64,000 bases of DNA from Fusobacterium ulcerans (GTDB lineage: Bacteria > Fusobacteriota > Fusobacteriia > Fusobacteriales > Fusobacteriaceae), in NCBI RefSeq assembly GCF_003019675.1, contig NZ_CP028105.1, forward strand, positions 1,876,282 to 1,940,281. The letters are read 5' to 3'. A program made the translations under genes and the position numbers. Each line of letters opens with the position of its first letter. The first letter of the stretch is position 1. Positions 16,285-47,583 of this stretch are shown piece by piece. Under the pieces are notes generated by a model, which was not told the DNA's origin, ran no database searches, and was given only the letters and a program-made list of their open reading frames with translations.

Positions 16285-16313
16285 TTGACATGAAGCAAGT
16301 AAAATAGTATAAT
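16285..16313 (+). promoter_or_regulatory. Consensus sigma-70 promoter of the MATE gene
   Basis: A perfect TTGACA and a perfect TATAAT are separated by exactly 17 bases. Transcription should begin near 16320, about 70 bases before the MATE start. A promoter this strong placed ahead of a terminator implies regulation after initiation. Confidence 0.9.
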
Positions 16314-16345
16314 ATACGAGGTCAAATAAAGAAAAAAGCAGGTGG

Positions 16346-16377
16346 GCAGCTGATAACCCAGCTGCTTTTATTTTTTT
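16346..16377 (+). terminator. Leader terminator (attenuator) just before the MATE ribosome site
   Basis: GCAGCTG / CAGCTGC forms a perfect 7-bp stem with the loop ATAACC, followed by TTTTATTTTTTT and then directly by the AGGAGG ribosome site. An upstream AAAAGCAG (16335-16342) can also pair with the right arm CTGCTTTT, giving an alternative fold. Its position between promoter and gene indicates attenuation. Confidence 0.75.
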
Positions 16378-16390
16378 AGGAGGAAAATTA

Positions 16391-17746
16391 ATGTTGGATA
16401 AATTGAAATTGGATAAAAGATTTATAAAAACTCTATTGGTACTAGCAGTTCCAATAATATTACAAAGTTTAGTTACTGCTTCATTAAATCTTTTGGATAA
16501 TCTCATGATAGGAAGTCTGGGAGAAAATGAAATAGCAGCTGTAGGAATATCAAATCAATTCTATATGGTGTATTATTATTCTATAATGGGAATAACTCTG
16601 GGAGCTGGAATTTTTATGTCACAGTTCTGGGGGAAAAAAGATGTATCCAGTATTCATAAATTTCTGGGGATATCTCTTGTATTTGGAATGGCAGCAACTA
16701 TATTCTTTGCAGCAGCAGCCTTTTTTGTTCCTGAGAAGATAATGAGTATATTTACAAAAGAATTTATAGTGATATCTTTAGGAAGAGACTATTTGAGAAT
16801 GGTAGCTTTAAGTTATATATTTACAACTATATCTTTAGCTTTTGCAGCTTCCCTCAGAAGTATAGGGCAGACTAAAATACCAATGTATGGAAGTCTTGTA
16901 GGGCTTATGTTTAATGGAATACTTAATTATATATTTATATTTGGAAAATTTGGAGCACCTGCTATGGGAGTTGCTGGAGCAGCTCTGGGAACTACTGTAT
17001 CAAGATGCATGGAGCTTTCTTTTATTCTTTTCATTATATATAAAAATAAGAATATAGTGGCAGGAAGTATATCACAGCTTTTAGACTTTAACTTTGCTCT
17101 TGTGATAAAATTTTTTAAAACAGCTACACCTGTTATTTTTAATGATGTAATGTGGATAGGAGGAATAACAGCATATTTTGTAGCTTATTCAAAACTGGGA
17201 ACAAATGCTACAGCAACTATGCAGATAGCTAATACAATAAATAATGTATTTAATATATTTGGAATAGGAATAGCCTCAGCTTCTGCTATATTGATAGGGA
17301 ATAAGATTGGAGCAGGACTTGAAGAGGAAGCAAAAAAGGATGCTCTAAAGATATCGGTATTTGGAGTGATGATTGGAGTGGTCATAGGGATATTATTCTT
17401 TGCAGTAGCTCCTCTTATAGCTATGCTCTTTAAGATAACTCCAGAAACATATCATAATGTAATAATTGTACTGAGAATAATGGCAACAGCTCTTCCATTG
17501 AGATTCTTTGGAATAGTACAGATTATTGGTGTGCTTCGTGGAGGGGGAGATGTCCTCTATGCTATAATTACAGAACTTGTAGCTGTATGGTGCATTGGTG
17601 TTCCATTGTCATTCTTGGGAGCTGTATACTTTAAGTTTCCAATAGTTTTAGTTTATCTCATGGTGTGTCTGGAAGAACCATTTAAAGTAATAGCTACTAT
17701 TCCAAGGCTGCGTTCAGGAAAGTGGATAAAAAATTTGATAAAATAA
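16391..17746 (+). CDS. MATE-family multidrug/sodium antiporter (first copy)
   Basis: A 451-residue, twelve-span MATE transporter, which exports cationic compounds using a sodium or proton gradient. The N-terminal half has ILQSLVTASLNLLDNLMIGSLGENEIAAVGISNQ. The matching segment of the second half is NDVMWIGGITAYFVAYSKLGTNATATMQIANTI, showing the internal duplication of the family. The ATG follows AGGAGG. It is preceded by a consensus promoter and a leader terminator, so expression is probably switched by read-through. It is not closely similar by eye to the second MATE gene at 46091. The exported substrate is unknown. Confidence 0.92.
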   Translation: MLDKLKLDKRFIKTLLVLAVPIILQSLVTASLNLLDNLMIGSLGENEIAAVGISNQFYMVYYYSIMGITLGAGIFMSQFWGKKDVSSIHKFLGISLVFGMAATIFFAAAAFFVPEKIMSIFTKEFIVISLGRDYLRMVALSYIFTTISLAFAASLRSIGQTKIPMYGSLVGLMFNGILNYIFIFGKFGAPAMGVAGAALGTTVSRCMELSFILFIIYKNKNIVAGSISQLLDFNFALVIKFFKTATPVIFNDVMWIGGITAYFVAYSKLGTNATATMQIANTINNVFNIFGIGIASASAILIGNKIGAGLEEEAKKDALKISVFGVMIGVVIGILFFAVAPLIAMLFKITPETYHNVIIVLRIMATALPLRFFGIVQIIGVLRGGGDVLYAIITELVAVWCIGVPLSFLGAVYFKFPIVLVYLMVCLEEPFKVIATIPRLRSGKWIKNLIK

Positions 17747-45432: not shown

Positions 45433-45798
45433 ATGAAAAAGGTACTACTAGGATGTATTCTACTTGCAGCATCAATAACAACATTTGCTGAATCTAATGT
45501 TTTATCTACATTAGAGCAGTTAGAACTTAATTTTCAGCAGCTTGAAGCTGAAGAAAAAGCCATGTATGAAAAAAGAAAATCAGAGGCTGAAGAAGCTCAA
45601 AGAACTCTTGCTCAACAAAGAGAAATGTATCAGAAAATAATAACACAGGAAAAACGTATAGCAGATGTAAAAGGAAATAGATACTACAAAGATCAGTATA
45701 ATCAGCTTGCAAAAAAATATGCTGACTCTAAAAAAGTATTGGAAGAGGATATGAGAAAACAGGAAGAGATAATTAATTTATTTGAAATGATTAAATAG
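45433..45798 (+). CDS. FadA-family adhesin-like small coiled-coil protein
   Basis: A 121-residue secreted protein. The signal peptide ends TTFA at about residue 19. The mature part is nearly all helix with heptad character and many Glu/Gln residues. It matches the FadA layout: LEQLELNFQQLEAEEKAMYEKRKSEAEEAQRTLAQQREMY, a central turn, then RYYKDQYNQLAKKYADSKKVLEEDMRKQEEII. FadA forms a two-helix hairpin that assembles into filaments binding host cadherins. This copy is a little shorter than the F. nucleatum protein (129 residues as I recall). Host binding by this paralogue is not shown by sequence. ATG follows AAGGGGG. Confidence 0.82.
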   Translation: MKKVLLGCILLAASITTFAESNVLSTLEQLELNFQQLEAEEKAMYEKRKSEAEEAQRTLAQQREMYQKIITQEKRIADVKGNRYYKDQYNQLAKKYADSKKVLEEDMRKQEEIINLFEMIK

Positions 45799-46040: not shown

Positions 46041-46064
46041 AAAAAGCGGCAAAGCCGCTTTTTT
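46041..46064. terminator. Strong bidirectional terminator
   Basis: AAAAAGCGGC-AAA-GCCGCTTTTTT, a GC-rich stem flanked by A- and T-runs, ends the adhesin pair and the converging MATE gene. Confidence 0.93.
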
Positions 46065-46090: not shown

Positions 46091-47443
46091 TTATCTGCTT
46101 TTCAACATAGTACTCTTTTTCCAACTTCCATATCTCATATAGATTATGCACATGATTAAAGATACAAAAGTAGCCAATGGAGCTCCAAATCCTATTTCAA
46201 AAAGAGTTATTCCTTTCATTCTGCTCAGAGCAAAAGAAACAGGAATTCTTATTAAAAATGTAGCTATAAGACTATGTACCATTGGGAAGACAGGGTGCCC
46301 GCATCCACTGAAAAAGGAGTTCATACAGAAAATAAAGCAAACTAGAATACAATCTATACTATATGATCTTAAATACATAGCAGCTGTATATATAACTTCC
46401 TTGTCATTAGAAAACAGAGATGTAATACTTTCTGGGGAAATTTGTGAATATATCCAGAAAGCAATTCCTATAACTAAAGAGCAGGCAATCCCCCCATAAA
46501 GTGATTTTTGTGCTCTCTCTATTTTTCCTGCCCCCATATTTTGAGCAGTCATTACAGCTATAGCAGAAGCAAAAGCTGTTGGAGGAAGCATAGCAAATAC
46601 AATAACCTTTTCAACCACTCCTACAGCAGCTGAAGCTGTAAGTCCCATAGTATTTATAATAGTTGTAATAAGTAAAAAAGATATATTTATAAGCCCATCC
46701 TGCAATGCAATAGGAAGTCCAAGATGAAATATTATCTTAGCTTTTTTAGGAAACAGCCAGATATATTTTTTCCCAAACTCAAAAGGAAATCCTTTTTTCC
46801 ATAAAAAGAGAACTGCAAGGATAAAGCTTATTCCTTGTGCTCCTACAGTGGCAATAGCAGCTCCAATAGCTCCCATCTTAAAAAAATCTACTAAAATAAT
46901 ATCAACTGCTATATTTATTACACAAGCAATAGCTATAAAATAAAGAGGAGTTTTAGAATCACCCATTCCTCTTAAAATACCACTTACAGCATTATATCCT
47001 ATAATAAAGGGAATACCACATGAGCATATAAAAATATACTGCTGAGTATATTTTAGAGACTCAACTGGAGTGTGCATTATTGTAGCAATGGGGTTAGTAA
47101 ATAATGTCATGAAAATAGTAAGTACTATAGAAAATAAGCCAAATACACAGATAATAGTTCCTACAGTTTTTGCCATATCTTTTTCTCGTTTAGCCCCTAG
47201 ATACTGTCCAATAAGAATAGTACCTCCAGTGGTTATTCCTAAGATAACCCCAGTAATTGTCTGCATTACCTGACTTCCTATAGCTACAGCAGATACAGCA
47301 GCAGAATCTGCATACTGTCCAACTACAAAAAGGTCAGCAGCTCCATAAAGTGCTTGGAGAAGGCTCGCCAGAAGAAAGGGAAATGAAAATCTCATCAAAT
47401 TTTTGAAAATACTTCCCTCGGTTAATAAATTTTTTTGTTCCAT
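46091..47443 (-). CDS. MATE-family multidrug/sodium antiporter (second copy)
   Basis: A 450-residue, twelve-span MATE exporter. Family features are FPFLLASLLQALYGAADLFVVGQYADSAAVSAVAIGSQ in the first half and GLPIALQDGLINISFLLITTIINTMGLTASAAVGVVEKV in the second. It belongs to a different branch from the gene at 16391; the two share only general family features by eye. ATG follows AGGAGG. It has its own consensus-like promoter and a leader terminator directly before the ribosome site, the same layout as the first MATE gene. Confidence 0.93.
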   Translation of the reverse strand: MEQKNLLTEGSIFKNLMRFSFPFLLASLLQALYGAADLFVVGQYADSAAVSAVAIGSQVMQTITGVILGITTGGTILIGQYLGAKREKDMAKTVGTIICVFGLFSIVLTIFMTLFTNPIATIMHTPVESLKYTQQYIFICSCGIPFIIGYNAVSGILRGMGDSKTPLYFIAIACVINIAVDIILVDFFKMGAIGAAIATVGAQGISFILAVLFLWKKGFPFEFGKKYIWLFPKKAKIIFHLGLPIALQDGLINISFLLITTIINTMGLTASAAVGVVEKVIVFAMLPPTAFASAIAVMTAQNMGAGKIERAQKSLYGGIACSLVIGIAFWIYSQISPESITSLFSNDKEVIYTAAMYLRSYSIDCILVCFIFCMNSFFSGCGHPVFPMVHSLIATFLIRIPVSFALSRMKGITLFEIGFGAPLATFVSLIMCIIYMRYGSWKKSTMLKSR

Positions 47444-47464: not shown

Positions 47465-47518
47465 TTAAAAAATGCTGGATAAAACAGTTGGGCTTTATCC
47501 AACCATCTTATCCAGCAT
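47465..47518 (-). terminator. Leader terminator (attenuator) before the second MATE gene
   Basis: On the minus strand an 11-bp stem (plus-strand ATGCTGGATAA 47472-47482 / TTATCCAGCAT 47508-47518) has an inner GTTGG/CCAAC helix. A T-run follows, and then the AGGAGG of the MATE gene. It lies downstream of the promoter at 47555-47583, so read-through must be controlled. Confidence 0.75.
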
Positions 47519-47554
47519 ATAAAATTTTCTATATACCCTCCGATGAACTAACTA

Positions 47555-47583
47555 AGTATACAATATTTCAGTCGAATAATCAA
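47555..47583 (-). promoter_or_regulatory. Promoter of the second MATE gene
   Basis: On the minus strand TTGATT (4/6) and TATACT (5/6) are separated by 17 bases. Transcription should begin near 47548, about 105 bases before the MATE start. Confidence 0.7.

Follow-up and report, generated by a model that had tools for sequence, protein, structure and literature searches.

The leader of a MATE family efflux transporter gene in Fusobacterium ulcerans is probably a transcriptional ON riboswitch of a class absent from the sources searched, in which a ligand in an internal loop would hold a short helix, P1, and block an intrinsic terminator; we put the probability of this reading at roughly three in four. 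The initial annotation had suggested a ligand-sensing RNA acting through the leader terminator, and this is also the best reading at the end of our analysis. Computation shows (i) two mutually exclusive folds and the order in which they form, (ii) covariation in three helices, (iii) a conserved loop, (iv) a position just after the promoter and (v) a link to unrelated exporters. Judged from its sequence, the leader is a member of a conserved RNA class. Because the loop is fixed, the motif widespread and exporters its recurrent targets, we infer that a small-molecule ligand rather than a protein binds; binding would turn the gene ON, and the ligand would be, or would report, a substrate of MATE or MFS transporters. 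The leader thus probably senses a harmful small molecule and permits synthesis of the pump that expels it.

The window, i.e. the whole 64,000-nt stretch of DNA analysed, carries the leader on its minus strand (47465–47583). A −35 box TTGATT (47583–47578) is separated by a 17-nt spacer from a −10 box TATACT (47560–47555); the two match 9 of 12 consensus letters, and transcription would start near 47548, assuming a start ~7 nt past the −10 box. The leader, ~105 nt from promoter to MATE gene, comprises the P1 5′ strand UCAUC (47542..47546, pairing with 47503–47507), the conserved 5′ side of the internal loop, GGAG (47538..47541), the hairpin P2 (GGUAUAUAGA, loop AAAU, UUUAUAUGCU; 47514..47537), the conserved 3′ side of the internal loop, GGAUAA (47508..47513), and the P1 3′ strand GAUGG (47503..47507). 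The intrinsic terminator hairpin (47518–47472, loop of 7 nt) is followed by a T-run (47472–47467), the ribosome-binding site AGGAGG (47460–47455) and the ATG (47443–47441) of the MATE gene (46091..47443, minus strand), which encodes 450 aa and matches Pfam MatE (6.6e-56) and TIGR00797 (216.8 bits, cut-off 147.4). Promoter, terminator with T-run, ribosome-binding site and gene all lie where the initial annotation had placed them; the 11 bp it gave for the hairpin are the base of a longer stem, counted as 20 pairs by the terminator scan and as 18 pairs by step-wise folding. Promoter-like sites in this region are about as frequent as expected by chance alone (11 found, 9.5 expected); the promoter call gains support because TTGATA-17-TATACT is kept at the same place, with a partly changed spacer, in the orthologues L032–L034. 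At the other end of the gene, the scan finds a hairpin that is terminator-like on both strands (46041..46063, listed on the minus strand), and a FadA adhesin-family gene (45433–45798, plus strand) lies close to where the MATE gene ends.

In the predicted conserved fold, the purine-rich internal loop GGAG/GGAUAA is closed by P1, with P2 above it. The 3′ half of this fold doubles as the 5′ arm of the terminator, and since the P1 3′ strand lies inside that arm, P1 and the terminator are mutually exclusive. A 49-nt RNA by itself adopts P1/P2 (z −4.2). Step-wise folding of the window RNA gives P1 and P2 as the best structure at lengths of 49–68 nt (−12.0 to −16.9 kcal/mol), and the terminator displaces them from 72 nt onward, so that a ligand holding P1 would cause read-through, as in an ON switch. 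In computed folding, the leader therefore possesses an expression platform that excludes the conserved fold. The region 47553–47441 folds at −34.9 kcal/mol (z −5.6), a value equalled by 0 of 200 shuffles, and within the intergenic region hairpins followed by a T5 run reach at best −28.6 kcal/mol, compared with a mean of −6.2 and a best value of −15.4 kcal/mol for 200 shuffles. A plain leader terminator, or an mRNA-stabilizing hairpin with no sensor attached, would by itself account for the folding z of the leader and for the terminator scan, but leaves unexplained the covariation of P1/P2 and the loop letters that stay fixed both within and beyond the stem, and we consider it very unlikely.

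For the riboswitch, we propose the following order of events. RNA polymerase would start a few nucleotides before P1, and the first 45–49 nt would fold into P1, the GGAG/GGAUAA internal loop and P2. If no ligand is present, the 3′ arm of the terminator, synthesized 20–30 nt later, would invade this fold on its 3′ side and undo P1 and the loop, and transcription would end before the MATE gene. If a small molecule is bound in the internal loop, P1 would stay closed and the polymerase would read through, so that accumulation of the substrate, or of a signal for it, would lead to synthesis of the exporter.

We assessed covariation in an alignment of related leaders. A pattern search yielded 88 matches, of which 69 have a terminator-like hairpin; L080, L094, L097 and L155 were removed by eye, one identical leader was taken out and five Fusobacterium leaders were added, again giving 69, and alignment A2 retains 52 of these after exclusion by hand of 17 near-copies or leaders with an over-long 3′ end. 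P1, P2 and the terminator covary over these 52 sequences, compared with shuffled alignments and with slid partners. For P1 and P2, 84.2% of cells are paired, against 66.6% in shuffles and at most 47.4% in slid controls, and 79 cells are changed on both sides (26.9 in shuffles); the corresponding values for P2 and the terminator are 90.0% paired (78.4%) and 156 double-changed cells (53.6). Changes on both sides occur at 10/11 pairs of P1 and P2, a count reached by 21/500 shuffles, and at 15/25 pairs of P2 and the terminator, reached by 16/500, and kinship among the sequences can inflate the remaining covariation measures. All seven counted pairs of P2 change on both sides, and the upper stem of the terminator covaries. 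The leader is thus a structured 5′-leader RNA with covariation, as required of a riboswitch.

P1 is short, with 4–5 pairs, and varies among leaders as a unit: CAU/AUG, UAA/UUA, CAAU/AUUG, GGU/ACU and a bulged CAC[G]/GUG. Its two outer pairs fail in 13 and 11 of the 52 sequences, which belong in part, many of them, to the bulged subtype that pairs only with one base bulged out. P2 extends down to the internal loop: among 27 leaders found with a covariance model, one basal pair is G-U or G-C in 27/27, another is G-C in 25/27 (A-C in two) and a third is U-G, C-G or U-A in 27/27. The shortest leaders, L225 and L227, in which P2 is reduced to GGUU-UAUGU-AACC or AACU, stand before Bcr/CflA-like MFS genes. 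Invariance of the core is uninformative in most of the alignment, where the search pattern itself fixes the core; its conservation rests on searches with free letters and on leaders found by the model, which is itself biased. Left free, GGA on the 5′ side and GG on the 3′ side of the loop are each kept in 12/12 Clostridiaceae-family matches, i.e. 60/60 letters, in leaders that are related to one another. Three Lachnospiraceae-family matches show a single change, U to C, among 12 free loop letters (AU twice and AC once on the 3′ side).

Hexamers resembling a −10 box cluster 10–14 nt upstream of the core; 71 of 107 distinct leaders have one 8–17 nt before it, compared with 10/107 in a control interval, and a −10 together with a −35 box at the expected place is found in 84/107 (control 10/107). 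Taking the start ~7 nt after the −10 box, the RNA would begin ~1–5 nt before P1. Translation-linked attenuation, also considered in the initial annotation, would have a drug-stalled ribosome on a short leader ORF block the terminator. GGAGGG does look like a ribosome site, and ATG CTG GAT AAG ATG GTT GGA TAA stands within the 5′ arm of the window terminator, but the distance between the two core parts does not keep frame in the 107 distinct leaders (44/35/28 by remainder modulo 3), a start codon follows GGAGG by 4–11 nt in 32/107, the stem ATG of the window and that of L035 do not share a frame, and the conserved GGAG sits within ~10 nt of the presumed 5′ end. These 107 leaders hold no conserved short ORF with a ribosome site of the kind a leader-peptide attenuator has, which makes this mechanism highly improbable.

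The leader recurs in near relatives and far beyond them. Absence of the terminator at orthologous MATE genes in close relatives had been named in the initial annotation as the observation that would speak against its proposal; among 12 genomes of the genus we found three close orthologues (L032, L033 and L034; 88–92% identity), and all three have the leader with its terminator. It also precedes a 44% identical MATE homologue (L035) in a fourth genome, in which CATCGGAGGGTA and GCTGGATAAGATG are retained although both P2 and the tip of the terminator are rewritten. The exact pattern CGGAGGGTA-N10-34-GCTGGATAAG occurs in 86 stretches of a genome contig collection; the 80 of these that were listed with titles include many from Clostridium, Lachnospiraceae and other Clostridia, several from Bacteroidales, some from Erysipelotrichaceae and one each from Enterococcus, Streptococcus and Limosilactobacillus, and scattered others look like chance matches.

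The covariance model, R1, scores the window leader at 86 bits. In Fusobacteriota, 6 of 98 genomes have a single match apiece; five of them belong to this genus, and the match in the other scores 39.5 bits. In the family of Clostridium tetanomorphum (Clostridiaceae), 25 of 194 genomes are matched, and in that of Sporofaciens musculi (Lachnospiraceae) 62 of 299. The filters of these searches may miss weak matches. In three of the 25 Clostridiaceae-family genomes, the sole match has no 5′ core (L223, L224, L226). We examined loci for the best 28 matches in Clostridiaceae and the best 30 in Lachnospiraceae, a part of the 62 matched genomes of that family; seven loci have no core by pattern (L223, L224, L226, L228, L229, L257, L258), the first five of which are part of a 32-row set and are excluded from the 27 leaders of the P2-base count. 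A separate search of 100 chosen sources gave 134 matches, including reverse-strand ones; R1 also matches the reverse strand of the window terminator at 26.8 bits because the terminator is palindromic. Two copies of the motif lie 0.7–1.5 kb apart in L077, in L132 and in the genome of L123 (G110); in L132, the two stand before different genes, GNAT and MATE.

The genes that follow share a theme rather than a lineage. Counting 104 distinct leaders (122 minus 18 identical) and calling MATE genes by a profile of 20 MATE proteins of the F. ulcerans genome, a MATE ORF starts within 700 nt after 80. Among the other 24, seven are followed by <450 nt of DNA, and behind 17 stands something else or no clear gene. 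Seven of these 17 stand before unrelated MFS transporters (L109, L127, L134, L154, L156, L225, L227, with L109, L154 and L225 tested); five look Bcr/CflA-like by eye (L109, L127, L156, L225, L227), and TIGR00710 Bcr/CflA is the best match of L109 (198.2 bits) and L225 (218.6 bits; cut-off 200.9). One further leader precedes a GNAT acetyltransferase gene (L132). Non-homologous genes with one theme, MATE in 80/104 and MFS in 7/104, thus lie downstream, as is typical of riboswitches. The MATE proteins behind the motif range from 92% down to ~20% identity to the window protein, which indicates that the leader follows function and not one gene lineage. The window MATE is 65–70% identical to motif-bearing MATEs of Clostridium and its family and at most 41% identical to its own paralogues, so that leader and gene seem to have moved together; other motif-bearing MATEs are only 20–25% identical to it, which implies that the leader also serves distant pumps.

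The same distribution bears on whether the terminator is instead switched by a protein bound at the GGAG/GGAUAA loop, an antiterminator or repressor like LicT, TRAP or PyrR. A 42-nt stem that is stable, has an asymmetric loop and overlaps the terminator would suit such a protein as well. The same loop is found, however, in Fusobacteriota, Firmicutes and Bacteroidales (by record titles) and before unrelated transporter families, and no shared regulator was seen by eye directly after the transporter in the 41 MATE loci with enough DNA, 13 of which have a candidate ORF there; nor did we see a shared second gene in the transcript. We therefore regard a protein-operated switch as unlikely, and a small-molecule riboswitch as the preferred reading.

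The initial annotation had also proposed a common control of the MATE genes in this organism. The 3.54-Mb single-contig genome holds 50 MatE domain matches, one of them below the cut-off, and the 20 distinct MATE ORFs extracted from 30 of these loci represent a large MATE set. R1 finds one match in the whole genome at E up to 0.001, the window leader itself, and no second copy; at 18 other MATE loci, with default filters, its best E is 8.7. A DNA-similarity search of the same genome returned, beyond the leader itself, matches of 15–47 bases (best E 0.005). These results do not support common control. As had been claimed, the window does contain a second MATE gene (16391–17746, plus strand) behind a leader terminator of its own, preceded by TTGACA-17-TATAAT, and the two leaders are indeed unlike. 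We considered this second leader as a further member of the class and rejected it, since R1 does not match it. It is conserved separately: the leader (16285–16390, plus strand) has a promoter matching 12/12 consensus letters and a hairpin like AGCAGRTGGGCRGCTRATAACCCAYCTGCTTTTATTTTTTT, recurs with few changes before seven further orthologues (84–95% and 68–69% identity) and is reduced in two at 66% (L273, L274). Its conserved loop is unusual for a plain terminator.

Comparison with known RNAs gave no identification. Searched with Rfam 15, neither the window nor the motif at 18 loci gives a match that reaches the gathering threshold; at E up to 10, the leader has 11 sub-threshold matches with no riboswitch among them, the best being CRISPR-DR66 (47471–47437, 28.6 bits against 45, E 0.0027), and at E up to 1 none was found at the motif in eight loci. 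GGAUAAG has what we took to be a resemblance to guanidine-III, an idea abandoned as no Rfam riboswitch matched. The SugE genes of Clostridium carry a different leader, presumably guanidine-I, and were not used as the yardstick.

A known guanidine riboswitch, i.e. class IV (mepA motif) or its variant Gd4v, was suggested by the association with MATE genes, before which guanidine-IV (PMC12186494) and both RNAs (PMC9788692) are reported. Guanidine-IV was our first identification and was dropped after comparison with SugE leaders of the guanidine-IV type. By our reading, the SugE leaders L184, L185, L186 and L191 of the Streptococcaceae family belong to guanidine-IV: their CTCCACCGGGAG and AGTAGGTCT..GAAG fit the published positions G62/G66/U67/G72 and the A29-U72/C30-G71 pairing. 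They share no core with the motif. A second type of SugE leader in the same family (L187, L188, L192, L193, L195) has CTCGCCGGAG ... CCTTAGGCCTTGTGG and is neither the guanidine-IV type of L184–L186 nor the motif. On ten SugE-type leaders, R1 reaches at best 15.3 bits (E 0.4). Guanidine-IV (mepA motif, GGAM-1), as described in PMC7736828, PMC11611296 and PMC12186494, resembles the motif as a transcriptional switch with conserved letters in the terminator hairpin, before MATE and other exporter genes, in which pairing of an upstream segment blocks the terminator. It differs in that a 5′ hairpin of its own contacts the terminator by loop–loop pairing, whereas the motif has no 5′ hairpin, its P1 encloses P2 and its conserved letters are others, located at the base of the terminator and not at its tip. 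The window leader has no 5′ hairpin with an ACC loop able to pair with the GGU of a GUAGGUC..AG loop, and an RNA start 1–5 nt before P1 would leave no space for such a hairpin.

Gd4v shares with the motif, according to PMC9788692, that it is an orphan with MATE and GNAT targets in Firmicutes and Bacteroidetes, often of the gut. It is characterized by conserved letters like those of guanidine-IV and by a pseudoknot joining two hairpins. According to that paper, its sequence and structure are extremely close to those of guanidine-IV, and it mostly precedes a transaminase gene; the motif resembles guanidine-IV in neither respect, which makes identity with Gd4v unlikely. Among the partly identified genes behind the 17 non-MATE leaders, we saw no transaminase. 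Taken as a whole, a known guanidine riboswitch is hardly to be expected here. The HMP-PP riboswitch (thiS motif) is likewise an ON switch with its aptamer embedded in the terminator (PMC6478431, PMC8632094), but its conserved letters are at the terminator tip (PMC8632094), and no Rfam riboswitch model matched the leader. A term search of PMC8632094, PMC11109978, PMC6429828, PMC2864571 and PMC7266159 gave no such MATE motif. No description of this motif was seen among the papers listed by the literature searches, and an earlier listing under another name may exist.

The internal loop of the motif bears a likeness to an FMN aptamer. The in vitro selected FMN aptamer has the internal loop AGGAUAU / AGAAGG. 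The motif agrees with it in GGAUA (5/5) and, with GGAGG in place of GAAGG, at 4/5 letters; nine of ten core letters are thus the same, and the loop sits between two helices in equal register, a likeness to be read with the caveat that many loops could have served for comparison. It differs by an extra A beside P1 and by one A replaced by G, and the aptamer's free position (GGNUA) is fixed in the motif. The U-to-C change, the only natural one seen in the loop, would be compatible with a G on the opposite side making a pair-like contact. By this analogy, the class could be a natural flavin-type sensor, in which the FMN-aptamer-like loop would bind a flavin or a breakdown product such as lumichrome and switch on export by MATE or MFS transporters, a tentative and rather improbable assignment. 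According to a preprint (PMC12934955), the MATE protein YeeO of E. coli is reported, in work cited there, to export flavins, and C. scindens, a gut member of Lachnospiraceae, degrades riboflavin to lumichrome.

An orphan riboswitch class matched in 62 of the 299 sampled Lachnospiraceae-family genomes would suggest that some toxic metabolite or foreign compound is common and has gone unrecognized. With sensor and terminator contained in ~80 nt and a conserved loop of 10 nt, ligand screening is practical and a compact biosensor possible. Such a class would also reveal what a group of 'multidrug' MATE pumps naturally transports.
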